Assembly: GCF_025602895.1 (NCBI RefSeq)
Contig: NW_026516317.1
Coordinates: forward strand, 83,438-147,437
Source of the DNA: Polychytrium aggregatum
Taxonomy: Eukaryota > Chytridiomycota > Chytridiomycetes > Polychytriales
Direction of reading: 5' to 3'
DNA length: 64,000 nt
Shown here: positions 1,996 to 62,692 of the stretch, piece by piece
Position numbering within the stretch: position 1 is the first letter of the stretch
How the letters are laid out: the number at the start of each line of letters is the position of its first letter
The notes under the pieces: model-generated
The model's input: the letters and a program-made list of their open reading frames with translations, nothing else
What the model was told of the DNA's origin: nothing
The model's database searches: none
Program-made: the position numbers and the translations under genes

Positions 1996-2190
1996 TTTGA
2001 ACGGGACATCTCTCGTTTCCACCGGGCGGCATTGTCGTTGATGGCCTCCGTCCAACAGACCATTTGCAATGAAACGGATCGCCTCGGGAGCCTCCGAGTG
2101 ACGACATCGAGTCTGTCTCTGGTCTCCACAATCGCCGTGCACACAGCGATCATGTTGCGCCGGATTGACGCCGCAATTGCCCGCTGAACG
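1996..2190 (-). mobile_element. Degenerate Fanzor transposon right end
   Basis: Read on the minus strand, 2185-2075 translates to a clear but decayed copy of the Fanzor C-terminus (RNMIAVCTAIVE, then VVTRRLPRR), matching the RNMITVCRSIVE and VFTRRLPK of the intact copies. Below it, about 80 bases of non-coding right end have nearly the same length as in the intact elements. They end at a terminal-repeat-like core, AACGGGACAT, at about 1998-2007. The RuvC-III catalytic region is mutated. It is an old relic of the family at 16769-20401. Confidence 0.7.
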
Positions 2191-2729
2191 ACAGCAGCCG
2201 GGATTGTAGCATCGCAGCGCAGCGATGGATGTGCATTCAGGACCCAGAGGAGGGGGTCTGGACTGGTGGTTGGTTGCGGACATTTGTGTCTGGGGCCACA
2301 GAGCCGCTCGTGCATCGTCCTGACCAGCAACAGACCATCGTCCTGGCCGTCCGAGAGTTGTGCCCACATCCCAGCAACCAAGACGGGCCCACAGATCGTA
2401 TCGAGTGCCGGGCCGCGGCTCTCCCGGCCACCACCCAGCGAAGGCCTCCAGCGCATGCCGACCGCATGCCCCGGACACGGGGCCCAGCACTCGCCTCGAC
2501 ACCACTATCCGCGGAGCATCCGGGCGACGCTGGTTGTGATCCCTCGCGGAAAACCCGCCGTGAGGGCTTTTGGCAATCGCCATCGGTTGCCAAAGCGGCC
2601 GGGTCGGCCGAGGGGGGGGGAAGTGTCTGGGCATCTGCGCTGGTCAGCCGCTCCAGAACTTGTCCCATATCATAGCTCTGCTGCATCTATCACCTCGACT
2701 CTGCAATCTCCTCCACCACTGCTACAAGA
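2191..2729. other. Intergenic, no gene supported
   Basis: About 540 bases upstream of the gene at 2730. Open frames exist on both strands but carry no motif or splice-consistent coding pattern. It probably includes the promoter of the downstream gene. Confidence 0.4.
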
Positions 2730-16768: not shown

Positions 16769-16800
16769 TACAGCGTATCCACTAAAAAACGGGACACCCA
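16769..16800 (+). repeat. Left terminal inverted repeat, copy 1
   Basis: TACAG followed by a stretch containing TAAAAAACGGGACACCC. The same end occurs at 42721-42690 (minus strand), 62487-62518 and, more diverged, 48117-48085. Confidence 0.85.
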
Positions 16801-16853
16801 GGGTTTTGACCATTGATCAATATTTTGTTACCCAAAACCATCGCGCGCTGGCC

Positions 16854-17658
16854 ATGACCATTCGCCACACATCCGATTTTCGCACCGCCGCATTGCGATG
16901 CTACGACCTCATCCATAGCCTGCGTAAGGTCGCCTCCATATTCAGTGTATCCAAGAGCACCATCCATCGATGGCACCGAGGATGCAAGCTGGATGACCCA
17001 TCCCGGGTCCCAGCTCGCAGATCCACTTTCTTCGAGCAGGCATGTCCAGTCATTCGCACCCTGATTGAACAGGACCCGTTCCAGACTGGTCCTGTGTTGC
17101 GATGCAAGCTCGAGTCCATCCTCCAGAGGAAAGTTTCACTCTCACTCTGCCACACTGCCCTACAGCGAGCAGGTCTCTCACACAAGAGTGCAACACACCT
17201 CTACAAGTCCAAGCGACTGGATGAGCGAGTGGCACAGTTCAGGAACCAGGTCCGCTCCATCGACCCGCGGCGATTCGTTTTTGTCGATGAGACGGGGATC
17301 AGGAGATCCATTTTCCCTCTTTACGGATACTCACCGAAGGGTTCCGCTTCGCCAGCGCAATCACATGAAACACAAGTCTGTCTCGGCTGCATTTGCCATC
17401 AACCACTCTGGTGTGCTGCATCGGATGTACATCCCCACATCATTCAAGACACACTCGATGGTCGAGTTCTTTGAGCGAGCGAGCTTCCCAGACGACTCTG
17501 TGATTGTAATGGACAATGTCAGCATGCACAAGACAATGGCTGTCCTGGACTGCATCGAGCGCCGAGGATGGTCAATGATCTTCACCCCACCTGCCTCGCC
17601 CGACTTCAATCCCATCGAGAACTTCTTTGGGGTTGAGTCCCCACCGCTTTGGGGTTGA
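16854..17658 (+). pseudogene. Tc1/mariner (IS630-type) DD34E transposase, frameshifted
   Basis: The likely original start is the ATG at 16854 (MTIRHTSDFRTAALRCYDLI). An N-terminal helix-turn-helix (LRKVASIFSVSKSTIHRWHR) is followed by a second HTH-like region and a DDE core: FVFVDETG (first Asp), VIVMDNVSMH (second Asp) and SPDFNPIENFF (Glu). Exactly 34 residues separate the second Asp and the Glu. Near 17340, two bases are missing relative to copy 2 (GAAGGG then TTCCGC instead of CGTCCC), which shifts the frame. The C-terminus stops after NFFGVESPPLWG, right after the catalytic Glu, where most family members continue for tens of residues. It is therefore probably inactive. Confidence 0.85.
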
Positions 17659-17693
17659 GTTCCTCCAATTTGGGGTTGTCCCTCCAATCAAGC
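17628..17693 (+). repeat. Short tandem repeat at the transposase-Fanzor junction
   Basis: Three units beginning TTTGGGGTTG follow the catalytic Glu codon of the transposase. Copy 2 (about 42065-42110, minus strand) has only two related units. It marks the join between the two genes of the element. Confidence 0.7.
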
Positions 17694-17793
17694 CGCCGTT
17701 CTCACGTTCACATCCCTGGCTTGAACCTCTCGGCGATTTTTGAACAGGGTCACTTCCCCAACCAGCCCGCAACGACGGGCTCCTGCTCTCGGG

Positions 17794-17800
17794 TATAAAT
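17794..17800 (+). promoter_or_regulatory. TATA box of Fanzor gene, copy 1
   Basis: TATAAAT lies 129 bases upstream of the Fanzor ATG in a short leader. The same box is conserved in copy 2, so the Fanzor probably has its own promoter and does not depend on transposase read-through. Confidence 0.55.
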
Positions 17801-17928
17801 GCCACACCTTCGTCCTGCTGCTTTCTTCCCTCATCTCGCCTTGATCTGATCATCGCGCTATTGTACGATAAAGAGAAGTCTCTGTTCTGACCAGTACCAC
17901 TGGCAGGCATCCAGCATCCTCTGCCCCC

Positions 17929-20301
17929 ATGCCTCCGAAGCGTAAGGGTACCGGTGATGGCCAGCCTCGGCCACCCAGGCCCAAGAAAGCCAAGTCACAG
18001 TCGGAGCCTGTCTCTTGTTCGTATTCTGATCCCACGCATGCTTGGTCGTCTGTTGCTCCGTCGCTCACCACCACTGCTTCTGCAGATCCAATGGATGTCG
18101 ATCCCACCGAGCCTGGTCCATCTACTTCCTCGAGTACCGGCAAGCGATGTCGCCAGTGCGATGGTACCGATCACGAACGTTGCAACACCAACAAGTGTCC
18201 CGAATACCGGCCCCTCAAGAGCTCTGTCGTCCCACTCGTGGATGGAAGGTCATCCGCCCCTCAGTTCAGCTGCTTCAAGCAGACGATGGATGGCTGTTGT
18301 CTCAATCCCGCTCTCCGCGACAAGATCCAGGCCACCGTCGAGGCCATGACCCAGATCCAGTTCGAGGCATCCAGGCTGCTCAACCTGCACATCCTCCGGT
18401 GCATCGAGCAGGATATTCCCGTCCCCGTCATCTCCAGGGCCACCCCTGCTTTCATCCGCCAGTGCTTTAAGATCGTCCAGGACGGTGCCCTCTCCCCGAC
18501 AGGGGACAATGAGAAATACAACGAGCATCTGGTCGCTTCCTTTCGCGACTATCAGACCACTCGGCACGCAGACCTGCCTCCGGCCCCTTGTCTGCCTGAT
18601 GGTGCTCACAGTCAGCTTCTCACCCTGGCTGTCAATGCCTATGCTACCAACTGCACCACCCACCTCAACCTGGCCTACTGGAGACTCCTTCGTCGCTTCT
18701 GTGCTGCCGTCTTCCCAGACAACAAACACAAGCACGACGCCATCGAGGTCTGTCTTGAGCACTTCGAGAAACCAGGGCAGACACCACCCAAGGCCGATAT
18801 CGAGTTCCTCTATCCCGAGTTTGGCCACATCCTGGACGAGTTTCGGTACAGCAACGACCAGGACCGCTTCCGGGCCCTCCATCGCCTCTCACACCATGTG
18901 GGAATCCTCGCCCGAGACAAGATGGTCGACAATGTCCACAAGTGGATCGACTGTGACATGCCCGCCCTCCGAGTCACCGAGTTGCAGCGCCAGGCCAAGC
19001 TGGACAAGCTCACTACCCAAGGCATTCTCTCCGACGACAAGAGGTTCACCACGGCCAAGTCTGAGCTCGGCACCACCAAGTCCAAGATCAACAAGCTGGC
19101 ATCCAGGATCAACTGGGCACTGAAGCAGCTCGCCGTCGACACTCCTCCGGCCGTGTGCACGATGGTTCCTCTATGCACTGCAAGGGCCAAGTATGTCAAG
19201 ATTGACACGGTCACTCTCTGGGAACTCCTGGGTCCAAAGAAGCGCCTTGGCCTCACCCGGGACATGCTCAAGGAAGAAGGTGAGGACGGTGTCAACAACC
19301 AGGATCGTCTCTGGCGCAGTTGCTTCAAGCTGCGTAGTTCCCTCTTCCAAGAGCGGGACGTGAACAAGAAGCTGTTCAACTACGAGATCAGCACCGATGG
19401 CATTGGATGCACCATCGGTCTCGTCAAGTTTCTGCCTCGAACCGATCGCACCGAGACCATCGAGCCTCCTCCGACTGCCGAGCAACGCATCCAGACCCAC
19501 ATCGGCAACCCAGACCCCAACCGCACCACTTGGATTGGAATCGATCCTGGAGTCGGCTCCATCTTCACGGCGGTCATCCAAGCACCGGGCCACCAAGACG
19601 AGGTGGTCTCGTTCTCCAATGGCCACTACCAGCACATGTGTGGCCATACGTCCAACACCAAGTGGCACAACACCATGAAGTATCGACTCAGCATCGAGAC
19701 CTGGATGTCGACCACCCCCTCGCCCAAGGTGTCGTCCTCGGAGGCTTTCAAGATCCATCTCACCCATGTCCTGCAACCGGAGCTGCGAGTGCAGCTCGAT
19801 TTCCACCTTGGCAAGAAGGCCCGTCACCATCGCTTCACGGGCCACAAGAGGCGCCAAGTGGCCGTCGACAGGATGTGCAAGGCCGTCCTGAAGCACGCCC
19901 CGATACGGACCGATGTGGTGATCGCCTTTGGCAATGCGTCATGGCGACAGGGCAAGGGCTATGCATCCAGCCCTCGGAGGCAGCGGTTTGCTCGGTACTT
20001 TGAGCAATTCGAGCACCACCGACGCCGTCCCAATCACCATCATGGAAGCGTCAAGGTGGCCTCGACGAACGAGTTCAACACCTCGCAGGTGTGCTCCAAG
20101 TGCCTGGAGCCAGTTCGGTTGGAAGGACTCGATGCGCCCAGTATTGCGAATTCCCACTTTGTCAGGAGCTGCAAGAATCCCAGCTGCCAGACAGTGTGGA
20201 ATCGCGACGTCAATGCGGCGCGCAACATGATCACAGTATGCAGGTCGATTGTGGAGATCGGAGAGCGACCGGCGGTCTTCACTCGGAGGCTGCCAAAGTG
20301 A
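17929..20301 (+). CDS. Fanzor RNA-guided nuclease (TnpB-like), copy 1, intact
   Basis: A 790-residue intronless protein. The N-terminus has basic nuclear-localisation-like clusters (PPKRK, RPKKAK), a disordered stretch and a Cys/His cluster (C74, C77, H82, C85, C90). A helical region follows, then the RuvC core: RuvC-I WIGIDPGVGS with D539; VVIAFGNASW, where the usual RuvC-II Glu position is G668; NEFNTSQVCSKC with E715 as the probable relocated Glu; a zinc ribbon from C722/C725 and C748/C753; and RuvC-III WNRDVNAARNM with D760. Fanzors are eukaryotic relatives of TnpB that cut DNA guided by an RNA made from the transposon right end. The frame has no stop or shift although the adjacent transposase is dead. 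It is about 94% identical by eye to copy 2. Confidence 0.93.
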   Translation: MPPKRKGTGDGQPRPPRPKKAKSQSEPVSCSYSDPTHAWSSVAPSLTTTASADPMDVDPTEPGPSTSSSTGKRCRQCDGTDHERCNTNKCPEYRPLKSSVVPLVDGRSSAPQFSCFKQTMDGCCLNPALRDKIQATVEAMTQIQFEASRLLNLHILRCIEQDIPVPVISRATPAFIRQCFKIVQDGALSPTGDNEKYNEHLVASFRDYQTTRHADLPPAPCLPDGAHSQLLTLAVNAYATNCTTHLNLAYWRLLRRFCAAVFPDNKHKHDAIEVCLEHFEKPGQTPPKADIEFLYPEFGHILDEFRYSNDQDRFRALHRLSHHVGILARDKMVDNVHKWIDCDMPALRVTELQRQAKLDKLTTQGILSDDKRFTTAKSELGTTKSKINKLASRINWALKQLAVDTPPAVCTMVPLCTARAKYVKIDTVTLWELLGPKKRLGLTRDMLKEEGEDGVNNQDRLWRSCFKLRSSLFQERDVNKKLFNYEISTDGIGCTIGLVKFLPRTDRTETIEPPPTAEQRIQTHIGNPDPNRTTWIGIDPGVGSIFTAVIQAPGHQDEVVSFSNGHYQHMCGHTSNTKWHNTMKYRLSIETWMSTTPSPKVSSSEAFKIHLTHVLQPELRVQLDFHLGKKARHHRFTGHKRRQVAVDRMCKAVLKHAPIRTDVVIAFGNASWRQGKGYASSPRRQRFARYFEQFEHHRRRPNHHHGSVKVASTNEFNTSQVCSKCLEPVRLEGLDAPSIANSHFVRSCKNPSCQTVWNRDVNAARNMITVCRSIVEIGERPAVFTRRLPK

Positions 20302-20401
20302 TCTGTTTTATTTCTTGTGGCTTTGCTTGACGCAAGCACAGCACATACTACATGTTCATGGAAACGGCTATATTGTCCCGTTTTTTTCTGAATAAAGTGT
20401 A
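20302..20401 (+). ncRNA. Candidate guide (omega/fRNA) region at the right end of copy 1
   Basis: Only 100 bases separate the Fanzor stop from the end of the element, and they are nearly identical in both copies. They include a 30-base hairpin at 20316-20345: TGCTTG pairs with CAAGCA around an ACG loop, and the outer TGT-GCT arm pairs with AGC-ACA with one mismatch and one bulge. Characterised Fanzor guide RNAs come from this position, overlapping the 3' end of the coding region and reading out through the right end, so the guide would be the flank from 20402. No expression evidence is available. Confidence 0.4.
20372..20401 (-). repeat. Right terminal inverted repeat, copy 1
   Basis: Read on the minus strand it starts TACACTTTATTCAG and continues into AAAAAAACGGGACAAT. 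It shares the ACGGGACA core with the left end and is nearly identical to 39350-39379. Confidence 0.85.
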
Positions 20402-28777: not shown

Positions 28778-29306
28778 GGCTTGTGCTGGCAGTGTTTGGT
28801 GCAAGGTATATGGCGGGAACTTGGGTCTTGGAAAGTGTGTGAATGAGAGGACCGGGGTACTATTTGCGATGGACTGTGGGAAGCAGAGGTCAATATATGG
28901 GGTTCGCCGGTGAGCGCTCGAACAATGCAGGAGACTTGTGCGAACCATCCGTCAGTCTGTCCCATGCTGTTTCTCGAGCCATTCACCTATCCACCCATTC
29001 AAAGAATGGCTATGGTACCGATGGGAGCAATGGTATGAATGGAGTGAATGACATCCGTGACAATGCCACCTGAGTGTATCCAATCGACAACGCTCACACA
29101 CAGCTCAATCATTTTCCACAATGGCCATCAATGCACTCTGAGGACTGCAGTTGCCAGTGCTGCTCATCCAGTTCAGCCCGATTGGGGGGTTGCGATAAAG
29201 GTGCTCTTGACACATGAACAAATGAGACAGCCATATGTCAGCGTTGTATTCGATGGCATGTGTCGTATTCGATGGCATGTGTCCAACTCGGCCATATGCA
29301 ATAACA
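28778..29306. other. Intergenic
   Basis: No gene was recognised. A 19-base unit GTATTCGATGGCATGTGTC is directly duplicated at about 29248-29285, next to the transposon relic. Confidence 0.4.
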
Positions 29307-29960
29307 CAGATCACCTCCCGGTGAAGACTTCTGGTCGCTCTCCACAATCGACCTGTACACAGTACAGTCGGTCCAGAAAAACGAGACAGTTCCTTCCTGG
29401 CTTCAGATGTCTGACTGACTGTAGGTCCAGTGAGCAAGCCGTGAGATTGTTTCCCGTCCTGGTTGGCAATCTCTCTGTGTAGTGCATCCACTCCACGCTC
29501 TGGACAGTTCCATACTAACTCGATATCAAGATGCTCGGCCTTCTCGAGTCGCTTGGTTTCCCGACAATGTGAGCATACCTGGGATGTGTTGAACTCGTTC
29601 ACCGAGCACACATGGATCTTGGAGACGGATTGGTCTGGTGGTCGTCTCTGGTGGTGGTGGAATTGCTCGAAGTACTTGGCGAACCTGAGTCTCCTGGGAC
29701 TGGATGCATATCCCTTCCCCTGTTTCCAGGATGCATTCCCAAAGGCAATCACCACTTCGGTCTCCTTGGCCATACTTGCTTGGCCATGAATACGATGAGT
29801 GGGTGGGTGTATTCAGGTTCCAGAAAAAGCACAGTCATAGCTCAAAACGGGGCTGTCCCATTTCATTTTGGAAACGCTGTAATCACGTTGCGCTCTGTAT
29901 TGACATCGCAATTCCGCACCGTGCAGCTGCTGGGAACGCTGTAGATCAGCCATTGCGGGT
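29307..29960 (-). pseudogene. Fanzor C-terminal relic split by a nested element
   Basis: Two pieces of one degenerate Fanzor 3' end flank the insertion at 29363-29881. The upper piece (about 29930-29882) encodes NCDVNTERNVI, equal to the RuvC-III NRDVNAARNMI. The lower piece (29362-29307) encodes VDCGERPEVFTGR, equal to the C-terminal IVEIGERPAVFTRR. Removing the insert and one TA joins them without a gap against the intact copies. Confidence 0.8.
29363..29881 (-). mobile_element. Short non-autonomous Fanzor-family element (519 bp), nested
   Basis: TA-flanked ends: the left begins TACAGTCGGTCCAG and the right, read inwards, TACAGCGTTTCC followed by AAATGGGACAGCC. The interior on the minus strand keeps a fragment of a second, diverged Fanzor (EVVIAFGNASWKQGKGYASS, NEFNTSQVCSHCRETKRLEK) but no transposase. 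The 29363 side is nearly the same as the 47632 side of the 486-bp element at 47632-48117. Confidence 0.8.
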
Positions 29961-39349: not shown

Positions 39350-39448
39350 TACACTATATTCAGAAAAAAACGGGACAATATAGCCGTTTCCATGAACAGT
39401 AGTATGTGCTGTGCTTGCGTCAAGCAAAGCCACAAGAAATAAAACAGA
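39350..39448 (-). ncRNA. Candidate guide (omega/fRNA) region at the right end of copy 2
   Basis: The equivalent of 20302-20401. The 30-base hairpin is at 39434-39405 and unchanged from copy 1, and only a few bases differ in the whole interval. The guide would be read from 39349 downwards. Conservation may reflect recent common origin and not RNA function. Confidence 0.4.
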
Positions 39449-41821
39449 TCACTTTGGCAGCCTCCGAGTGAAGACCGCCGGTCGCTCTCCGATCTCCACA
39501 ATCGACCTGCATACTGTGATCATGTTGCGCGCCGCATTGACGTCGCGATTCCACACTGTCCGGCAGCTGGGATTCTTGCAGCTCCTGACAAAGTGGGAAT
39601 TCGCAATACTGGGCGCTTCCAGATCCCTCAGCCGAGAGGGCATCAGGCAGTTGGAGCACACCTGCGAGGTGTTGAACTCGTTCGTTGAGGCTACCTTGAC
39701 GCTTCCATGATGGTGATTGGGACGGCGTCGGTGGTGCTCGAATTGCTCAAAGTACCGAGCAAACCGCTGCCTCCGAGGGCTGGATGCATAGCCCTTGCCT
39801 TGCCGCCATGACGCATTGCCAAAGGCGATCACCACATCGGTCCGTATCGGGGCGTGCTTCAGGACGGCCTTGCACATCTTGTCGACGGCCACTTGGCGCC
39901 TCTTGTGGCCCGTGAAGCGATGGTGACGGGCCTTCTTGCCAAGGTGGAAGTCGAGCTGCACTCGCAGCTCCGGTTGCAGGACATGGGCGAGATGGACCTT
40001 GAAGGCCTCCGAGGACGACACCTTGGGCGAGGGGGTGGTCGACATCCAGGTCTCGATGCTGAGTCGATACTTCATGGTGTTGTGCCACTCAGTATTGGAC
40101 GTATGGCCACACATTTGCTGGTAGTGGCCATTCGAGAATGAGACCACCTCGTCTTGGTGGCCCGGTGCTTGGATGACCGCCGTGAAGATGGAGCCGACTC
40201 CAGGATCGATGCCAATCCAAGTGGTCTTGTCGGGGTCTGGGCTGCCGATGTGGGCCTGGATGCGCTGCTCGGCAGTCGGAGGAGGCTCGGAGGTCTCGGT
40301 GCGATCGGTTCGAGGCAGAAACTTGACGAGACCGATGGTGCATCCAATGCCATCGGTGCTGATCTCGTAGTTGAACAGCTTGTGATTGATATCCCGGTCA
40401 CGGAAGAGGGAACTACGCAGCTTGAAGCAACTGCGCCAGAGACGATCCTGGTTGTTGACACCGTCCTCACCTTCTTCCTTGAGCATGTCCCGGGTGAGGC
40501 CGAGACGATGTTCGGAGTCAAGGAGATCCCAGAGAGTGGCCGTGTCGATCTTGACATACTTGGCCGTGGCAGTGCACAGAGGAACCATCGTGCACACGGC
40601 CGGAGGAGTGTCGACGGCGAGCTGCTTCAGTGCCCAGTTGATCCTGGATGCCAGCTTGTTGATCTTGGACTTGGTGGTGCCGAGCTCAGACTTGGCCGTG
40701 GTGAACCTCTTGTCGTCGGAGAGAATGCCTTGGGTAGTGAGCTTGTCCAGCTTGGCCTGGCGCTGCAGCTCGGTGACTCGGAGGGCGGGCATGTCACAGT
40801 CGATCCACTTGTGGACATTGTCGACCATCTTGTCTCGGGCGAGGATTCCCACATGGTGTGAGAGGCGATGGAGGGCCCGGAAGCGGTCCTGGTCGCTGCT
40901 GTACCGAAACTCGTCCAGGACGTGGCCAAAGTCTGGATAGAGGAACTCGAGATCGGCCTTGGGTGGAGTCGAGTCCGGTTTCTCGAAGAGCTCGAGACAG
41001 GCCTCGATGGCTTCGTGCTTATGCTTGTTGGCTGGGAAGACGGCAGCGCAGAAGCGGCGAAGGAGTCGCCAGTAGGCCAGGTCGAGGTGGGTGGTGCAGT
41101 TGGTGGCATAGGCATTGACAGCCAGTGTGAGAAGCTGACTGTGAGCACCATCAGGTAGACGAGGGGCCGGAGGCAGGTCTGCGTGCCGAGTGGTCTGGTA
41201 GTCGCGAAAGGAAGCGACCAGATGCTCGTTGTATTTCTTGGTCTCCCTGGCCGTCGAGAGGGCACCGTCCTGGACGATCTTAAAGCACTGGCGGATGAAA
41301 GCAGGGGTGGCCCTGGAGATGACGGGGACGGGAATATCCTGCTCGATGCACCGGAGGATGTGCAGGTTGAGCAGCCTGGATGCCTCGAACTGGATCTGGG
41401 TCATGGCCTCGACGGTGGCCTGGATCTTGTCGCGGAGAGCGGGATTGAGACAACAGCCATCCATCGTCTGCTTGAAGCAGCTGAACTGAGGGGCGGATGA
41501 CCTTCCATCCACGAGAGGGACGACAGAACTCTTGAGGGGGTGATATTCGGGACATTTGCTAGTGTTGCAGCGTTCGTGATCGGTGCCATCGCACTGGCGA
41601 CATCGCTTGCCGGTACTCGAGGAAGTAGATGGACCAGGCTCGGTGGGATCGACATCCATTGGATCTGCAGAAGCAGTGGTGGTGAGCGACGGAGCAACAG
41701 ACGACCAAGCATGCGTGGGGTCAGAATACGAACCAGAGACAGGCTCCGACTGTGACTTGGCTTTCTTGGGCCTGGGTGGCCGAGGCTGGCCATCACCGGT
41801 ACCCTTACGCTTCGGAGGCAT
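39449..41821 (-). CDS. Fanzor RNA-guided nuclease (TnpB-like), copy 2, intact
   Basis: A 790-residue intronless protein of identical length to copy 1, with about 50 substitutions and no indel, stop or frameshift. D539, E715, D760, the zinc-ribbon cysteines and the N-terminal Cys/His cluster are all kept. Substitutions cluster in the middle (residues about 190-310 and 420-530) and next to the first CxxC (CSNCLMPSRLRDLEA against CSKCLEPVRLEGLDA). The even length and preserved catalytic residues suggest a functional protein. Confidence 0.93.
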   Translation of the reverse strand: MPPKRKGTGDGQPRPPRPKKAKSQSEPVSGSYSDPTHAWSSVAPSLTTTASADPMDVDPTEPGPSTSSSTGKRCRQCDGTDHERCNTSKCPEYHPLKSSVVPLVDGRSSAPQFSCFKQTMDGCCLNPALRDKIQATVEAMTQIQFEASRLLNLHILRCIEQDIPVPVISRATPAFIRQCFKIVQDGALSTARETKKYNEHLVASFRDYQTTRHADLPPAPRLPDGAHSQLLTLAVNAYATNCTTHLDLAYWRLLRRFCAAVFPANKHKHEAIEACLELFEKPDSTPPKADLEFLYPDFGHVLDEFRYSSDQDRFRALHRLSHHVGILARDKMVDNVHKWIDCDMPALRVTELQRQAKLDKLTTQGILSDDKRFTTAKSELGTTKSKINKLASRINWALKQLAVDTPPAVCTMVPLCTATAKYVKIDTATLWDLLDSEHRLGLTRDMLKEEGEDGVNNQDRLWRSCFKLRSSLFRDRDINHKLFNYEISTDGIGCTIGLVKFLPRTDRTETSEPPPTAEQRIQAHIGSPDPDKTTWIGIDPGVGSIFTAVIQAPGHQDEVVSFSNGHYQQMCGHTSNTEWHNTMKYRLSIETWMSTTPSPKVSSSEAFKVHLAHVLQPELRVQLDFHLGKKARHHRFTGHKRRQVAVDKMCKAVLKHAPIRTDVVIAFGNASWRQGKGYASSPRRQRFARYFEQFEHHRRRPNHHHGSVKVASTNEFNTSQVCSNCLMPSRLRDLEAPSIANSHFVRSCKNPSCRTVWNRDVNAARNMITVCRSIVEIGERPAVFTRRLPK

Positions 41822-41949
41822 GGGGGCAGAGAATGCTGGGTGCCTGCCAGTGGTACTGGTCAGAGCAGAGACTTTTTTTTATCGTACAATGGCGCGATGA
41901 TCAGATCAAGGCGAGATGAGGGAAGAAAGCAGCAGGACGAAGGTGTGGC

Positions 41950-41956
41950 ATTTATA
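41950..41956 (-). promoter_or_regulatory. TATA box of Fanzor gene, copy 2
   Basis: TATAAAT on the minus strand, 129 bases upstream of the ATG at 41821, at the same distance as in copy 1. Confidence 0.55.
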
Positions 41957-42635
41957 CCCGAGAGCAGGAGCCCGTCGTTGCGGGCTGGTTGGGGAAGTGA
42001 CCCTGTTCAAAAATCGCCGAGAGGTTCAAGCCAGGGATGTGAACGTGAGAACGGCGGCTTGATTGGGGGACTAAACCCCAAATCGGTGGGGACTCAATCC
42101 CAAAGAAGTTCTCGATGGGATTGAAGTCGGGCGAGGCAGGTGGGGTGAAGATCACTGACCATCCTCGGCGCTCGATGCAGTCCAAGACAGCCCTTGTCTT
42201 GTGCATGCTGACATTGTCCATTACAATCACAGAGTCATCTGGGAAGCTCGCTCGCTCAAAGAACTCGACCATCGAGTGTGTCTTGAATGATGTGGGGATG
42301 TACATGCGATGCAGCACACCAGAGTGGTTGATGGCAAATGCAGCCGAGACAGACTTGTGCTTCATATGATTGCGCTGACGGAGTGGGACGCCCTTCGGTG
42401 AGTATCCGTAAAGAGGGAAAATGGATCTCCTGATCCCTGTCTCATCGACAAAAACGAATCGCCGCGGGTCGATGGAGCGGACCTGGTCCCTGAACTGTGC
42501 CACTCGCTCATCCAGTCGCTTGGACTTGTAGAGGTGTGTTGCACTCTTGTGTGAGAGACCTGCTCGCTGTAGGGCAGTGTGGCAGAGTGAGAGTGAAACT
42601 TTCCTCTGGAGAGTGGTTGTGTGGCGAATGGTCAT
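41952..42635 (-). pseudogene. Tc1/mariner DD34E transposase with internal deletion
   Basis: The frame starts MTIRHTTTLQRKVSL and keeps the DDE core (FVFVDETG, VIVMDNVSMH, SPDFNPIENFF). Relative to copy 1, an exact 81-codon in-frame deletion removes the helix-turn-helix region, so the protein should not bind its terminal repeats. Unlike copy 1, the DDE part is not frameshifted. After the catalytic Glu the frame runs on into the Fanzor promoter region, so the native C-terminus is missing here too. Confidence 0.85.
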
Positions 42636-42981
42636 GGCCAGCGCGCGATAACATTGGGTAACAAAATATTCGATGAATGGTCAAAATCCCGGGTGTCCCG
42701 TTTTTTATTGGATCGCCTGTAATTCACTTGGTCACTCTCGGCCGAGTGGGTGATATGATCGAACTACGGCACGTTTTCAGAAAGAGACGATGCTGCACTG
42801 GCGCGGACATCTCAAGGCGATCAAAGTTTGGGCCTGATTGGCGATGATGGGCGGGCGCTTGCTTTGCCAAGCGAGGCCCCACAGCCAGTCGGATTCCCTC
42901 CCTCTGCTCAGAAATGCATGCTTCGACTCTTCCGTTTGTATTCTGCCATTATTCGCGCCCCAGCGTTGTTGTGAATCAGCC

Positions 42982-44343: not shown

Positions 44344-47300
44344 ATGCTCGTCTCCAGAGGCCTCTGGGCCGTGTTCGGCTTGCTCCAGGTCGCCTCGACC
44401 GCCCGCGCCGCCTCTGTTCCGCAGGTGCCGCTCGTCCTCGAAACTGATGAATCCAGCGTCCCGATGAAAAAGTTCCCCAATGCCCGCGCCTTCCTCCGCT
44501 TTGTCAACCACACCCTCTCCGAGCTCGAGTACCCTACCAACCAGGCGTCGTGGGAGTATGAGACCGACATCACCGACGAGCACGGCCAGCGCGCCGTCGA
44601 GGCCCAGATGGTTTTCAACCAGGTGAGGCGGTTGCTGATCACCGCGGGCTCTTCGTGAGCGAGCCCACAGCCATCCCGCCGTGTTGGCTGCCAGCATCAC
44701 GTCCCGCACAGCCAGCCAGCGGCATCGCTTTGATCATAGTCGTCTCCCGCTTACCAAACGCTAACAAGCGACTGCTTCCGCGTCCCGCTATCTCCGTCCT
44801 CGATCGTGTTTCCAGGCCCTCCAGAACATCCTGAACCAGATCGGAGACTATCATGGCTCAAACGACGACGAGAAGCGCCAGCTCGAGCTCCTCTCGCTGA
44901 TGGTCGGCAACCCCAAGGATCCCGAGGACCAGCGTGTCTTGTCGGCAATCGAAGCCGACATGGTGAGCATATATAGCACTGCCAACGTCGACGGTCTCAG
45001 CCTGGATCCCGACCTGGTCAAGATCATGGCCTATTCGCGCGACTACGACGAGCTCAAGCACGCATACCTTGGCTGGAGAAACGCCACCGGTCCTCGCATG
45101 AAAGGCCTCTACACGGCCTTTATCGACCTGCTGAACAAGGGCGCTCGCCAGGGCGGCTTTGAAGACACTGGCGAGCTCTGGTGAGTGCCTGTCCCCGTCG
45201 CTTGCGGTATGGCGATCGATCAATACCTGTAGAATTACGAACAAGTGGCTCATCTTTGGGTGTGGTTTGACATCAAAGGCGCTCGCAGTACGATATGAAG
45301 CCCAAGAAATTTGAGGTTGGTAACGCCGAGATGCGCTGCTGTGGTGTCGCCGGGCAGCACCATGGGGGCATGCAGTCGCATCGCCATGCTGCTGCATCCC
45401 GGCATCTCCAGGCATCGCCAGGCACGGCTGTATTGCACGGCTGTCTGGCTACTCCTTTGCTGGCTCTGGCTCTGGCTCTGCGACTCCACGCTGACGGCGC
45501 GTATCCCACCAAACAGAAAATGATCGACAAAGTCTGGAAGCAGGTCCTGCCCCTGTATCGCGAGCTACACTGCTATACGCGAGCCAAACTCGTCGAAAAG
45601 TATGGGGCTGACCGATTTGGAAACGACGGGCTGATTCCGGCCCATCTTCTCGGTGAGCGCCGCATGCATTCTGTCGGTCCCTTGCTCTGCTGTTGTCCGA
45701 GAATGCTCCTCCGCTGACGCTGTCTCTGGCTGCAGGCAACATGTGGTCCCAGGACTGGAGTACCATCTTCGACATTTTGGTGCCCTTCCCAGACACCAAG
45801 CCAATTGGTTTGTTCCAGTCAGATGGCCAGTGCGGTGAGACGGGTGCGGAAAGCGCTCTGTTCTAACCTCCGACACGGCAATGCAGATGTGACCAAGGCT
45901 CTGATCGAACAGAACTACTCAGCCGAGGCCATGCATCGACTCTCCGAGAGCTTTTACCACTCTCTTGGCTACGATAGTAGGTATCCGCTACTGGATCATG
46001 CGAACGTTTCTCCAGGCGTATGCGTGTCGCCAAATCTTGACATTCTCGACTGTTTATCGTTGCGCCGGCAGAGCTCCCTCAGTCCTTCTGGGAAAAATCG
46101 ATGCTCACCAAGCCTTCCGACCGCGAGGTTGTGGTAGGTACCAGTATCCGCCAGCATTGTCGGCGCGCCTGCAGCGTCCCTTTTCTCTCTCTCTCTCTCT
46201 CTCTCGTCTAACGTCTCTTCATTTCTCGATGGCACATGCAGTGTCACGCCAGGTAGCACTCTGCCATCTCTCGCACTGGGAGGGGCGATTGGGCCAGAGC
46301 TTGCAGCTAACACGACCTTCTTCAGTGCCTGGGACTTTGGAAACAACGATCTCCGCATCAAGATGTGCACCAATGTCAACCAGGAGGACCTTTTCACGGT
46401 GCACCATGAACAGGGCCATCTGTACTACGACCACTACTATCGACATCTCCCGTACTTGTACCGATCTGGAGCTGCCGACTTTTTCCACGAGGTTGGCGTC
46501 GCTCTGTGCTGCTCGTTTGCGATATTCAAGGCTGATCTATGGTTGCTGTTGTCTCGGGGTTGCTGTAGTCTCGGGTCGGCGGGTCTCACCCTTGTCGCAA
46601 ACTTGCTAGACAACAGTAGAGGCACTCTCCTCTGTCGGGACCACTAAATCACTTCTACTTTATCTATCATCCCCCCACAACGACAGGCTATTGGAGACAC
46701 CGCCGTTCTGTCTGTCGTTGTCCCCAAGCATCTGAAGGAGATTGGTCTGATCGAGGGCGAGATCGAGGATAGCTGGCAGCAGACCATCAACTATCAGATG
46801 CTCGTGGCCCTCAGCAAGGTCGCTGTGCTTCCATGGGCCTTCCTGGTCGACAAGTGGCGATGGCAGGTACGCGTATAGAGGTGACCTGGTCAGCAGCTTC
46901 TCCAAGCGATGCCTTGTTAACCCACATGCCGCACATTCAGGTTATGAGCGGACAGGTCCCTCCCCACAAGTATCAGCAAGAATGGTGTGTATCTGCAGTG
47001 TCGATTGGTCCGGAGGTGCGTTTGGTCGAGACACTGACCAAAGTCACCGGTACTCTAGGGACTCGCTTCTCGAGAAATACCAGGGAATCAAGCGACCCGA
47101 GCCCGCCGATGTCGACTCCTTCGACCCTGGCGCAAAGTACCACATCCCGGTAAGCGACTCCCGCGTCTCCACGCAAGTGCAGAGCCAGGCAGTGGCGGGT
47201 GCGGGTCTTTGGGGCCAGAGCATATCCCTAGAACCCCAGCTCACATCCTCTGTCCTCGCCACAATGCAGGCCAACACCCCGTACATGCGATACTTTGGAG

Positions 47301-47578
47301 CCGCGGTGATTCAGTTCCAGTTCCATCACGGCCTCTGCAAGGCTGCGGGACACAAGGGCCCGCTCCACGAGTGCAGCATCTACAAGAACAAGGATGTTGG
47401 AAAGAAGTTCCGACACATGCTCGAGATTGGCAGCAGCCAGCCGTGGACCAAGGCTGTTGAGGCCGGCTCCGCGGGCCTCTACGACACCCTCGACGGCTCC
47501 GCGCTCATCAAGTACTTTGAGCCCCTGCTGGAGTACCTCAAGAAGGCCAACAAGAAGAATGTGTGCATCTGGAAGTAG
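44344..47578 (+). CDS. Peptidase family M2, angiotensin-converting-enzyme-like dipeptidyl carboxypeptidase
   Basis: A zinc metallopeptidase predicted to remove C-terminal dipeptides outside the cell or in the secretory route. Signal peptide MLVSRGLWAVFGLLQVASTARA. About ten exons carry M2 landmarks in order: QASWEYETDITDEH; LVKIMAYSRDYDELKHAYLG; ARAKLVEKYGADRF-type segment and IPAHLLGNMWSQDWSTIFDI; LPQSFWEKSMLTKP, EVVCHASAWDFGN; the zinc site VHHEQGHLYY (HExxH at about 46404-46418); third ligand FHEAIGDTAVLSV, spanning an intron; and PWAFLVDKWRWQV, MRYFGAAVIQFQFH, CSIYKNKDVGKKF. It ends without a transmembrane anchor at NVCIWK. A (TC)n run lies at about 46176-46205 in an intron. Confidence 0.88.
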
Positions 47579-47631: not shown

Positions 47632-48117
47632 TACAGTCGGTCCAGAAAGAAACGGGACAGCCACTTTCTGGCATCAGAGGCAAAGGTCTGCTGATCCGCA
47701 GGCCCCAGTGGGCAAGCCGTGAGATTGTTTCCCGTCCTGGTTGGCAATCTCTCGGTTTCGTTGGTTCGGAAAGCGTAGTCTTGAATACACTCGGTCGATC
47801 TCTTGTGGCGACTAGTATTGATGTGTCGATGTGTGAATGTGGTGCATTTACTCGATGTGTGAGTGCGGTGCATTCACCACCCTCTGGACTGCTCCATGGT
47901 GTATCGATATCAAGATACTTGGCCTTCCCGAGTCGCTTGGCTTCCCGGCACTGTGAACACACCTGGAGATCGAGTCGCTTGAATCGCCGTCGCCTGGGTG
48001 GCGTCCTTGATTCAAAACACAGAGTAGTCATGGCCAGCGCGCGATGGTATTGAGCAACAACATATTTGATCAGTGGTCAAAATCAAGGGTGTCCCGTTAT
48101 TTATTGGATCGACCGTA
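47632..48117 (-). mobile_element. Short non-autonomous Fanzor-family element (486 bp)
   Basis: TA-flanked. The left end begins TACAGTCGGTCCAG with GAAACGGGACAG. The right end, read inwards, is TACGGTCGATCCAATAAA with AACGGGACACCC, close to the left ends of the full copies. Next to that end is a remnant of the leader before the transposase (CATGGCCAGCGCGCGAT). The interior on the minus strand keeps only a fragment of the zinc-ribbon region of a diverged Fanzor (VCSQCREAKRLGKAKYLDID). It lies 54 bases after the stop of the M2 peptidase gene. Confidence 0.85.
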
Positions 48118-57217: not shown

Positions 57218-59229
57218 TCATTTGGCAAGTGCTGCAAGGTGAATGAGAAGAGTCATGCAGGAGAGGGAAAGCACAAACACTCCAGGCTGGAAGCGCGCGC
57301 TGCCGCTGGACTTTCCAGAAGGGCTCGGGGTGCCAGAAGGATTGCCTGTGCTGTTCGCGGCATCGAGCGAGCCTTGATCAAAGTTGATGGGGCGAGCTTG
57401 GTCCTGATAGGCACACGAGGCGTCGTTGCAGAGACACTTGCCCGCAACCGGGTCCCACCAGAGTGTGTCGCAGTTGGTCGGGAGGGGATAGCGGCTGCTG
57501 CTCGACGAAGGAAGTGGGTTCGGGATGTCGGGAACGACGCTGGGACAGCCATAGCAGGTCTGTGGGAGAAGTGTTGTGTCATTTGCTGGTGTTGGCAAAC
57601 GAACCACCCATGCCAGAGCGACACAGTGACTCGGATCAATCCAAAGCAAGACCAACGGTCGGGAATGCACCAAGTGCAGCAGCAGAGACAGCACCGAGTG
57701 CATCAGCAGAGTGTACCGAGTGCAGAAGCAGAGACAGCGCCGAGTGCAGCAGCAGAGAATGCACCAAGTGCAGCAGCAGACGCTCATCCAGCACCGCTCA
57801 GAGTCCCCAGAGCCACTCGGGACACTCACATGCATTGTGCCGGTGAGGAAGTTGCATGTCTCGGCAAGCGACGCCGGTCCGAGTCCGTTGCAGATGTTGG
57901 TCGGCGCCGTGTTCTTGCACTGCATGTATGGCTGCGAGCCGAGCTGGCTGGCCGGGACCGGGTTCTTCATGTACTCGACCATCTGGGATCCGGTGATCAT
58001 CCACACATCGGGTTTGCTCATTGCATAGTCGAGGAACTTTGCGACCGTGGCCTGTTTGTTGAGGCCGTTGGGCGAGGTCGAGGCGCCGGTGAGCCAGACA
58101 GGGTGTGTGTAAACGCCAAAGGGGGCCCGGTTCCCGTTGTAGTGGCTGTCGAAGGTCGAGGCGTACTCGGAATAGACAGTGTCGAGCGAGATGGGGTTGG
58201 TGATGGTGGGATCGTTGTAAGGATCCATGAGATGGATACCGCTGGCACCTGGGGAGAGATCGGACACGCCAGAGAATCAAGTCAGTCATGGCAGCGAGGG
58301 ACAACGACCCACCGGCCGCCGATGCAGGTGCAGGTGCAGTCGCAGTCGCAGTCGCAGTCGCAGTTGCAGTCGCAGTCGCAGTTACAAGCGGGAGCAGTTG
58401 CAGGCGGGAGCATCGAGTGTTACCTCCGGTCTCGTACAGTGGAACCTCCCACATTCCTTGAGCTTTCAAGTTTGGATCACCACAAACGTTGACCTGGTCG
58501 GTACATCCCGTGGCCTCTCCATAGTCGAGAGTGTAAGGCCAGTAGAGAGTGTTTCCGCCGGCACTCATCGAGGAGTCATAGAGGAATCCCATCTTCTTCA
58601 TCATGTTGAGGGCATCGGTACTGTAGTTTCGGAACGGAAAACGAACACCTTTGATCTTGCCAAGAGGAATGCCGGCGTATCGGTTGAGGAAAGCGCGGTT
58701 TCCTTCGTATTCGATGTATTCATAGACACCGGCCTTCTGAGGGCCGGGATAGGCGCCGTGGGACATGGTGTGGTCGGCGATCTCGTGGCCGCGGGCATAG
58801 AGCTGGGTCGCCAGGAAGGGATCGGTGTAGTAGGTTTGGGTGTAGAATGTGATTTGAACGGGGCAACCGTTTGGGTTCTTGCGGGTCCCGGTGAGGGCCG
58901 AGACGACGCCAAAGGTGTCTGTTGGTCGGGAGCCGCAGCCAGAAACGTCAGATCCGGCTCAACGGATTGGGAGACATCCGGTCGAGGCGATGCCGACCCC
59001 ACAGCCGGCTCTCTGCAATACCATCGTACTCACCGGAGTTGAGTCCATCATCAAAAGTCAGCATCAGGAACTGGGGAGCCTGTTGTGGGGCGATGCCGCC
59101 AGGAGGTGTGGGGCTGGCACAGGTGCAGTTGGGCAGCTTGCAGACGGTTGGGTCGCAGCTGTAACCCTGGACACAGGCAACGCCCGCGAGAACCGAGAGC
59201 AACAGGCTGGAGTAGGTCGAAAGGATCAT
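57218..59229 (-). CDS. Chitin deacetylase-like protein (polysaccharide deacetylase, CE4), paralogue 1
   Basis: Would remove acetyl groups from chitin at the cell surface. Start ATG at 59229 with signal peptide MILSTYSSLLLSVLAGVACV. The N-terminal Cys-rich piece [15 protein letters not shown] is followed by the NodB catalytic motif LMLTFDDGLNSG, then GHEIADHTMSHGAY (zinc His pair), GVRFPFRNYSTDALNM, and after an intron [13 protein letters not shown] and [12 protein letters not shown]-terminal Cys motif ([27 protein letters not shown]) is followed by a Ser/Thr/Gly-rich stretch and a hydrophobic end (SLSCMTLLIHLAALAK), consistent with a GPI signal. Introns contain GCAGTC and CAG-type repeats. 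Confidence 0.88.
57663..57790. repeat. Diverged tandem repeat of AGTGCAGCAGCAGAG type
   Basis: Several units of 21-30 bases built on ACCGAGTGCAGCAGCAGAGA in an intron of chitin deacetylase paralogue 1. The equivalent intron of paralogue 2 is shorter and lacks it. Confidence 0.7.
58323..58385. repeat. GCAGTC hexanucleotide repeat
   Basis: About ten GCAGTC/GCAGTT/GCAGGT units in an intron of chitin deacetylase paralogue 1. Confidence 0.8.
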
Positions 59230-59797: not shown

Positions 59798-59900
59798 GAG
59801 GTCGATTGTGGAGACCGGAGAGCGACCCACGGTCTTCACTCGGAGGCTGCCGAGACGATCTGATTTATTTCTTATGGCTCCGTTGAACGCAGACCATCAT
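59798..59900 (+). mobile_element. Decayed Fanzor 3' end between the two chitin deacetylases
   Basis: The plus strand GTCGATTGTGGAGACCGGAG at 59801-59820, followed by AGCGACC and CTTCACTCGGAGGCTGCC, matches the C-terminal codons and stop region of the intact Fanzors (20244-20300) closely. It continues into TGATTTATTTCTTATGGCTC, equal to their 3' non-coding start. No left end is present. Confidence 0.75.
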
Positions 59901-59953: not shown

Positions 59954-61978
59954 TTAGGCCAACGCCAGCCAGGCCCCCCACGATACGCTGGCCAAGAGTG
60001 TCATGTAGATGCGGGGAGCGGTGCTCTCTCCGGCGCTGGTGCTTTTGCCGGATGCTCCTGTCGGACTCGTCTTGGCTCCGCTTCCAGTCGGTGTCGAACC
60101 GCTGCTCTGGCCATTGTTGCTGGAGGAAGGGTTCAGCCAGGTCTGATCAAAGTTGATGGCCCTGCCGGTGTCGCTGTAAGCACAGGACGAGGATGTGCAG
60201 AGACACTTTCCCGCAACGGGGTCCCACCAAAGCGGATCGCAGTTGGTTGGGAGCGGCTGTCGCGAGCTGGCGGGGGCCGGAAGCGGGTTCGGAATATCGG
60301 GCACGGCGCTTGGGCAGCCATAGCAGGTCTGGATGTGTAGCGGTATGCACAGCCAGACAGTACAGTTAGCACATACAGGTGGGCACGGACAAGTCCACCC
60401 AAGCGGTCCATTCAACAAATAGAAAGTGCACCTGCCACTTACATGGATCGTGCCCGTGATGAAGTTGCATGTCTCGGCAAGCGACGCCGGCCCGAGTCCG
60501 TTGCAGATGTTGGTCGGGGCAGTATTGTTGCACTGCATGTACGGCTGCGAGCCGAGTTGGCTGGCTGGGACCGGGTTCTTCATGTACTCAATAAGCTGCG
60601 ATCCGGTTACCATCCACACGTCGCCCTTGGCCATGGCATAGTCAAGGAATTGAGAGACAGTGGCCTGCTTGTTGAGGCCGTTGGGCGAAGTAGTTTCGTT
60701 TGTCAGCCAGACAGGGTGGGTGTAGACACCAAAGGGCACCTTGATGGCGTAGTGGGTCTCAAACGTCGAGACGTACTCGGAATAGACGGTGTCGAGCGAG
60801 ATGGGGTTGGTGATACTTGGGTCGTTGTAGGGATCCATGAGATGGATGCCGCTGGCACCTTCACAGTCGAGGAGCGGGACCCGTCAGTATGCGGACATTG
60901 GCCACGAACGGCACTTCAACCAGTTACTCTCGACGTCGAGACTGCTGCCCCTCGCTTACACGGTGCACGGCTCTCATCGCTCCATTATCGTTATGGCTTT
61001 TGATGCGATCTATGGGCCAGCAGAGCATGCATGCTGCCTACCTCCGGTTTCGTACAGGGGAATCTCCCACAGACCCTTGGCATTGAGACTCGTGCTTCCG
61101 CAAACGTTGATCTGGTCAGTGCAGCCGGTAGCCTGTCCATAGTCATATGTATACGGCCAAAACATGCCGCTGCTGCCAGCCGAGGCGGACGACTCCCACT
61201 GAACGCCCATCTTGGAGATCATATTGAGGGCGTTGGCGCTGAAGTTAAGGAATGGAAAGCGAAGGCCCTTGATCTGGTCGAGCGGGATTCCGGCGTAGCG
61301 ATTGAGATATGCCCGATTGCCCTCGTACTCGATGTAGTCATAGACACCCCACTGTTGAGGTGCTGGCGGCGGAGGGTATGCTCCGTGAGACATGCTGTGC
61401 AGGGCGATTTCGTGGCCCTGGGCGTGCAGCTGCGTCACAAGAATAGGATCGGTGTAGTAGGTTTGGGTGAAGAACGTTGCATGGACGGGGCAGCCATTGG
61501 GATTCTTCCGGTTGTTGGTCAGCGCCGTGACAACACCATAGGTGTCTGATGGTCGAGGGGGGAGGCTGCTGTGAGTTCGATGCGTCGATTGCCAACACAG
61601 ACTTGCGCCGGCAGAGATGAGGATGCAAAGAGGGCTCATCCCTCCTCGCCCAGGTGTGAAGGAGAGCCACTCCGATATCCACTCGCATCCCCATTCCGAT
61701 CCCCACCCCCTCCATATCCGCCCTCGTATACAGGGTGCAGCGTCAGACCCTGATCAAGTCGTACCGGTTTGAACGGCGTCATCAAAGGTGAGCATGAGAA
61801 ACTGCGGCGCATTCTGGACAGAGATGCCTCCGGGTGGGCTGGAGCTACCGCAAGCACAGCTCGGAAGTTTGCACACGGTGGGGTCGCATTGGTAGGATGA
61901 CGATTGGCCATGGCTGGGACCGACAGAAAACGCAAGGCCCAGCAACAGGCTAGCGCAGCGAATATGCATTCGACGCAT
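59954..61978 (-). CDS. Chitin deacetylase-like protein (CE4), paralogue 2
   Basis: Tandem duplicate of the gene at 57218-59229, same strand and same exon plan. Start ATG at 61978 ([17 protein letters not shown]; the in-frame ATG at 61969 is also possible), with a signal peptide ending near PSHGQ. It has [16 protein letters not shown], NodB motif [12 protein letters not shown] (TFDDA instead of TFDDG), [71 protein letters not shown] and a Ser/Thr/Gly-rich tail ending in hydrophobics ([14 protein letters not shown]), so also probably GPI-anchored. The Asp of IADHTMSH in paralogue 1 is Leu here (IALHSMSH). Confidence 0.87.
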
Positions 61979-62486: not shown

Positions 62487-62692
62487 TACAGGCAATCCAA
62501 TAAAAAACGGGACACCCGGGTTTTTGACCATTCATCGAATATTTTGTTACCCAATGTTATCGCGCGCTGGCCATGACCATTCGCCACACATCCGACTTTC
62601 GCACCGCCGCATTGCGATGCTACGCCCTCATCCATAGCCTGCGTAAGGTCGCCTCCATATTCAGTGTATCCAAGAGCACCATTCACCGATAT
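62487..62692 (+). mobile_element. Solo left end of the Fanzor transposon
   Basis: Starts TACAGG and TAAAAAACGGGACACCC exactly like copy 2, then follows the leader and first codons of the transposase (MTIRHTSDFRTAALRCYALI, RKVASIFSVSKSTIH) and stops abruptly at about 62692. There is no right end nearby. The transposase frame meets a stop two codons later. Confidence 0.85.

Follow-up and report, generated by a model that had tools for sequence, protein, structure and literature searches.

The persistence of Fanzors on eukaryotic transposons is an open question, and a 64,000-bp stretch of the genome of the chytrid Polychytrium aggregatum (contig NW_026516317.1, positions 83,438 to 147,437; 57% GC; here called the window, in whose numbering all coordinates are given) poses it in a concrete form: does an intact Fanzor gene beside a damaged transposase gene tell us that the nuclease is selected? 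The window contains two complete, TA-flanked Tc1/mariner elements with Fanzor1, copy A (16769..20401, 3633 bp, forward strand) and copy B (39350..42721, 3372 bp, reverse strand), delimited by self-BLAST and a check of terminal inverted repeats (TIRs) and TA ends. The TIRs common to A and B read TACAG..AAAAAACGGGACA at the left and, reversed, TACAC..AAAAAAACGGGACA at the right, the left TIR of A occupying 16769..16796 (forward strand, TA included). As expected of Tc1/mariner elements, a TA target duplication at both ends and matching TIRs are present in A and B, and also in two short derivatives, D and E, described below. In a self-comparison of the window, similarity between A and B ends exactly at the element boundaries, so the two are separate insertions. 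A single segmental duplication was considered and is ruled out, the A–B match being confined to the element limits. A and B are thereby confirmed as independent Tc1/mariner (IS630-type, DD34E) insertions, each with an intact Fanzor1 and a damaged transposase. Their TA ends and TIRs, together with the DDE_3 and IS630 matches and the Fanzor1 motifs described below, bear out the original prediction of a Fanzor on a Tc1/mariner-type element in two full copies.

The Fanzor1 open reading frame (ORF) of A (17929..20301, forward strand) is uninterrupted and that of B (39449..41821, reverse strand) is 94% identical to it at the protein level. Each has 790 codons and the two differ by 115 nucleotides and 49 amino acids, with no indels and no stop codons, just as had been claimed (full length in both, about 50 substitutions, no indel or stop). 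Fanzor matches Pfam PF07282 above its cut-off (E 4.3e-9 for A), while its match to NCBIfam guided_TnpB falls far under the cut-off of that model. Fanzor1 proteins are described as having DPG at RuvC-I, an alternative Glu six residues before the zinc finger, and TDG in the WED domain (PMC10711439). Both A and B have D539-P540-G541 at RuvC-I, E715 followed by six residues and C722, and T489-D490-G491, the last presumably in the WED domain. The Fanzor1 pattern D-X(125,275)-[TS][TS]-X-X-[C4]-X(5,50)-RD (PMC3627910) is matched by D539, 178 residues, T718-S719, C722/C725/C748/C753, five residues, and R759-D760. The predicted Fanzor structure has a mean predicted local distance difference test score of 31.4. 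The top two Protein Data Bank matches of an A+B profile were SpuFz1 (E 0.052) and GtFz1 (E 0.12), both in the C-terminal region only and neither significant alone. No match to Fanzor A was found in phages by tblastn, and scans of viral contigs with Fanzor and with the transposase gave no confirmed relative. Near the N-terminus of Fanzor A lies a Cys/His cluster, CRQCDGTDHERCNTNKC (residues 74-90; 18148-18198), which looks zinc-knuckle-like by eye, sits behind a basic stretch resembling a nuclear localization signal, and has no Pfam match.

The transposase genes are in a different state. In A, the remnant (16855..17655, forward strand; identified from HTH_23, DDE_3 and alignment to B) consists of a helix-turn-helix (HTH)-like part and a DDE_3 part, separated by a 2-base gap relative to B at 17340/17341 that shifts the reading frame. 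In B, the transposase ORF (41952..42635, reverse strand) retains DDE_3, but an in-frame 243-bp (81-codon) deletion has removed the HTH region. DDE_3 matches both copies (E 1.4e-21 in B, E 7.9e-15 in A), and 34 residues separate the second D from the E. The IS630 match in B (NCBIfam, E 2e-25) scores 89.9 bits, under the 100-bit whole-protein cut-off; in A, HTH_23 matches at E 0.0024, likewise under its Pfam cut-off.

Both copies also lack the C-terminal part of the protein. Transposase homology in A and B ends at one common junction, directly after NPIENFF, past which A has 12 residues and a stop codon and B has 52 residues in which the eye sees no relationship. The DDE_3 match ends at position 127 of 146 in both copies and the IS630 match at 269 of 299 in B, while all six bacterial relatives found in genome contigs have 51 residues past the Glu of the DD34E triad. 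Among the plasmid matches, 57 of the 60 listed (of 811 records) end at or before query residue 179. Neither copy encodes a full-length transposase: A is frameshifted, B is without the HTH, and both are without the C-terminal part. An intron holding the missing C-terminus was considered, but no IS630-like tail was seen by eye, and past NPIENFFG the two copies are not in the same frame. Because the junction is identical in the two copies, the simplest history would be a single C-terminal loss predating their separation. The claim that the two transposases were lost by different lesions therefore stands for the frameshift in A and the 243-bp deletion in B, but misses a third, C-terminal lesion that is common to both. 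A short imperfect tandem repeat (TTTGGGGTTGAGTCCCC-like, 17625-17687) lies where both transposases lose homology, and is 20 bp shorter in B.

Comparison of the two Fanzor genes gives 55 synonymous and 60 nonsynonymous differences and a ratio of nonsynonymous to synonymous substitution rates (dN/dS, NG86) of 0.319, a value as low as which was reached in none of 500 spectrum-preserving neutral simulations (minimum 0.479). These differences are strongly clustered, with a variance-to-mean ratio of 5.08 in 60-bp bins against a maximum of 1.95 in 5000 shuffles, so the 49 amino acid changes probably do not represent as many separate events. A two-state model separates a background of 2.2% difference from patches of mean length 9.5 bp with 38% difference. 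The proportion of synonymous sites that differ (pS) is 0.67 inside the Fanzor patches and 0.058 outside, and the patches therefore seem to have a history differing from that of the rest; ectopic gene conversion and local error-prone repair were considered as their source. Patches of 2-29 bp, about 40% or more divergent and with more similar stretches between them, are found at 17343-17352 and within 18189-20133; one of them lies next to the frameshift in A. When the 51 patch codons are removed, 30 synonymous and 22 nonsynonymous differences remain over 739 codons and dN/dS falls to 0.217, with none of 2000 simulations as low. The original prediction had named a ratio near 1 as the outcome that would speak against selection on the nuclease; the A–B pair lies well away from it with or without the patches, and Fanzor was under purifying selection along the path joining the two copies.

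The same analysis of the transposase, however, does not single out the nuclease. Over 180 codons (one skipped) there are 11 synonymous and 7 nonsynonymous differences. In the core, the 170 codons left once those bordering the deletion and those of the unmatched tail are set aside, there are 10 and 3, a pN/pS of 0.091; so few nonsynonymous differences arose in only 1 of 5000 simulations (P 0.0002). Fisher tests of Fanzor against the 7:11 set gave P 0.32 when every Fanzor codon was counted and 1.0 when the patches were left out, and against the 3:10 core P 0.076 and 0.34, respectively; in all four comparisons the nonsynonymous share is the larger in Fanzor. There is thus no sign that Fanzor is more constrained than the transposase, and the claim of selection on the nuclease during decay of the transposase is not upheld, since the transposase core is as constrained or more so.

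As the transposase core was constrained as well, most of the A–B divergence arose under selection on both proteins. The share of the path over which the transposase could have been neutral is no more than 24-39% (95% bound, with an omega of 0.2 to 0 elsewhere), and over so short a neutral part an intact Fanzor is uninformative. In simulations with random substitutions only, indels not being modelled, the chance that Fanzor acquires no stop codon was 0.80 for 10 substitutions, 0.63 for 20, 0.31 or 0.42 for 52, and 0.07 for 115. A stop-free Fanzor is therefore expected in 7-42% of simulations for the observed numbers of differences, and intactness proves little. The argument that selection on the nuclease is proved by its intactness beside a dead transposase is ruled out by the equal constraint on the transposase core and by these probabilities, which are not small. 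Fanzor was selected in the past; nothing here shows selection after the death of the transposase.

Three further copies of the element are present in reduced form. Copy C (62487..62692, forward strand) is truncated and consists of the left end and the start of the transposase only. Copy D (47632..48117, reverse strand) is a 486-bp ghost-like derivative with both TIRs and TA ends, containing only the start of the transposase and sequence from the Fanzor zinc-finger region. Copy E (29363..29881, reverse strand) is a 519-bp ghost-like derivative with both ends and a C-terminal Fanzor fragment but no transposase gene; the fragment has 71% amino acid identity to A over 73 columns, so E derives from a second subfamily. 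E is inserted at a TA within another Fanzor remnant, just past the RD-motif codons, splitting it into a downstream part (29291..29362) and an upstream part (29882..29935), both on the reverse strand; when joined, these flanks match Fanzor B (72%, E 4e-20). At the site of this insertion A and B differ by 3 of 16 nucleotides and are without the TA, and an RNA from the right end of E, if made, would carry a guide matching the interrupted Fanzor allele. Remnants of the Fanzor 3' end occur at 59799..59879 (forward strand) and, in degenerate form, at 2068..2243 (reverse strand). Among neighbouring genes, an ORF adjoining D (46751-47575, forward strand) matches Peptidase_M2 (angiotensin-converting enzyme family, E 4e-39). 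Polysaccharide-deacetylase-like ORFs (57801-58958 and 61013-61753, reverse strand) lie in a locally duplicated stretch, with 74-84% DNA identity between three pieces of 57375-58928 and 60144-61555, and a Glyco_transf_15 gene is also near the elements; these deacetylase-like and Glyco_transf_15 genes suggest a fungal host.

Fanzor1 RNAs have been described as spanning the right-end TIR with the target-site duplication (TSD) and extending about 15 nucleotides into the flank (PMC10711439, PMC10432273). By analogy, the last 100 bp of the element, the 3' noncoding end with the right TIR (20302..20401 in A, forward strand), could encode an omega-RNA; comparison of A and B reveals one substitution and one gap in this candidate region. 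A hairpin including TIR bases is possible at the right end of both copies. The right ends fold better than most shuffled sequences over 140 nucleotides in A (z -2.26) and 139 in B (z -2.86), with 3 of 200 shuffles doing as well in either case, and over 100 nucleotides in A (z -1.98, 7 of 200 shuffles as good). Rfam (at the gathering threshold) and ARAGORN gave no matches over the window, and the 16 nucleotides past the right ends of A, B, D and E had no second site in the window at two or fewer mismatches. The base before the left TA is T in four of the five copies (A, B, C and E) and C in D. Because the target-adjacent motif of SpuFz1 is CATA (PMC10432273), the corresponding motif here may by analogy include TTA.

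Fanzor1 on Tc/mariner elements was described for PUl-1, PGv-1 and PUl-4 by Bao and Jurka (2013; PMC3627910), as were Fanzor-only forms and degenerated coding regions on such elements. By description, these resemble A and B in having a Mariner-type transposase and/or TIRs, a TA target duplication and Fanzor1, but their hosts are Pythium ultimum and a Phaeocystis virus, whereas A and B are from a fungus. SPu-1 of Spizellomyces punctatus, which carries SpuFz1, is similar in that it has TA ends and TIRs, an intact ORF in several of its copies, and ghosts of about 550 nucleotides (PMC10432273) that resemble D and E; its Fanzor has a similar C-terminus, RS..RP.VF.R..P, although the match is weak. 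In contrast, SPu-1 is about 2.1 kb long and, as described by Saito et al. (PMC10432273), has no transposase within its inverted repeats, whereas A and B have a DD34E transposase remnant inside their TIRs and a Fanzor of 790 rather than 633 amino acids. MCi-2A of Mucor circinelloides is another Fanzor element whose transposase coding sequence is incomplete at the C-terminal end, but its transposase is of the Crypton type, recognizable TIRs are absent, and its TSDs are 11-12 bp (PMC3627910). Bacterial TnpB (IS200/IS605, IS607) shares the RuvC/zinc-finger C-terminal part, and by analogy Fanzor likely works in the same way; TnpB is associated with another transposase class, however, and Fanzor A/B has a rearranged RuvC-II Glu and a much longer N-terminal part. 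Gene-drive-like retention through RNA-guided cutting has been reported for bacterial TnpB (PMC11870625), and for Fanzor is proposed only (PMC10432273). Among the open-licence papers listed, no title or abstract opening pointed to a study that contrasts, branch by branch, selection on Fanzor with selection on its transposase.

We regard A and B as probably, though far from certainly, members of a young and now non-autonomous Fanzor1-mariner family in which both genes were formerly selected and the nuclease retains the element by cutting the vacated site. The anatomy, the TA and TIR ends, the lesions, the constraint on both genes and the ghost-like derivatives are all observed in the window and support this account; the RNA guide, cleavage, retention, mobilization in trans and the timing of the lesions we infer. 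In this family Fanzor1 follows the transposase gene and precedes the right end, together with a promoter-like sequence of its own (in A a putative TATAAA box at 17794..17799, forward strand, 135 bp 5' of the Fanzor ATG). Both proteins were under purifying selection in the ancestors of A and B, and each present copy would then have lost its transposase through a private, recent lesion on top of the common C-terminal loss, Fanzor remaining intact chiefly as little time has elapsed. A working Fanzor would most likely bind an RNA whose transcription runs past the right end into flanking DNA, and would cut the empty TA site after excision, and repair from the sister or allelic copy would restore the element. 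A and B would now be movable only by a transposase from elsewhere. Mobilization in trans, which the original prediction had put forward, is plausible because the same C-terminal loss is found at different sites and because D and E, which have no transposase gene, have TA ends; the accompanying idea that the nuclease was maintained during transposase decay does not follow.

Several observations weigh against this account. If the common C-terminal loss destroyed the transposase, the constraint seen on it in the A–B comparison has no easy explanation: either a short form of the transposase worked, or recombination mixed the histories of the genes. The clustering of differences means that the Fanzor and transposase genes may have separate histories. 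Among the 60 listed plasmid matches (of 811 records), three extend to query residues 191, 203 and 211, so the tail of B is not wholly without weak resemblance to other transposases. Right ends of 75 nucleotides fold no better than shuffled sequences (z -0.41 in A, -1.21 in B, -0.95 in D and +0.38 in E), and left ends fold similarly (z -0.91, -1.52, -0.57, +0.46 and -1.02).

The shared C-terminal loss, at an identical position in both copies, is also what would be expected if Fanzor had been selected since before the A–B split in a truncated, non-autonomous lineage moved in trans, where only the nuclease would bring a benefit, by keeping or homing the element. The Fanzor dN/dS of 0.22-0.32 agrees with such a history, as does the existence of transposase-less families with intact Fanzors, for example SPu-1, reported without a transposase and with an intact Fanzor in 9 of 17 full-length copies, and the remark of Bao and Jurka on the lasting coding capacity of CMe-1A (PMC3627910). 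A dead gene is not expected, however, to be as constrained as the transposase core (3 nonsynonymous to 10 synonymous differences), and we consider this history unlikely, while giving it serious weight. A related reading, in which selection has maintained Fanzor alone after an ancestral C-terminal loss and RNA-guided cutting of vacated TA sites kept the element and its nuclease spreading by means of a transposase acting in trans, the ghost-like D and E being served by the same nuclease, we also hold to be unlikely. Plain decay, with both genes now unselected passengers and Fanzor intact by chance in young copies, fits the no-stop probabilities given above for 52 and 115 substitutions and the state of the remaining Fanzor remnants in the window, which are fragments; a dN/dS well under neutral expectation shows past selection along the path, yet is silent on the present, and we view decay of this kind as rather improbable. 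Domestication of Fanzor as a host gene serving the cell would account for an intact ORF in two copies, but both lie within complete elements that are flanked by TA, have intact ends and occupy unrelated sites, and several derivatives have the same ends, making a host function very improbable.

The element is a new example of the Fanzor1-Tc/mariner elements already described. The two copies alone do not separate selection on the nuclease with the transposase from selection without it. With a recognizable DD34E transposase and an intact Fanzor1 inside one pair of TIRs, and ghost-like derivatives nearby, this family is well suited to telling the two apart.

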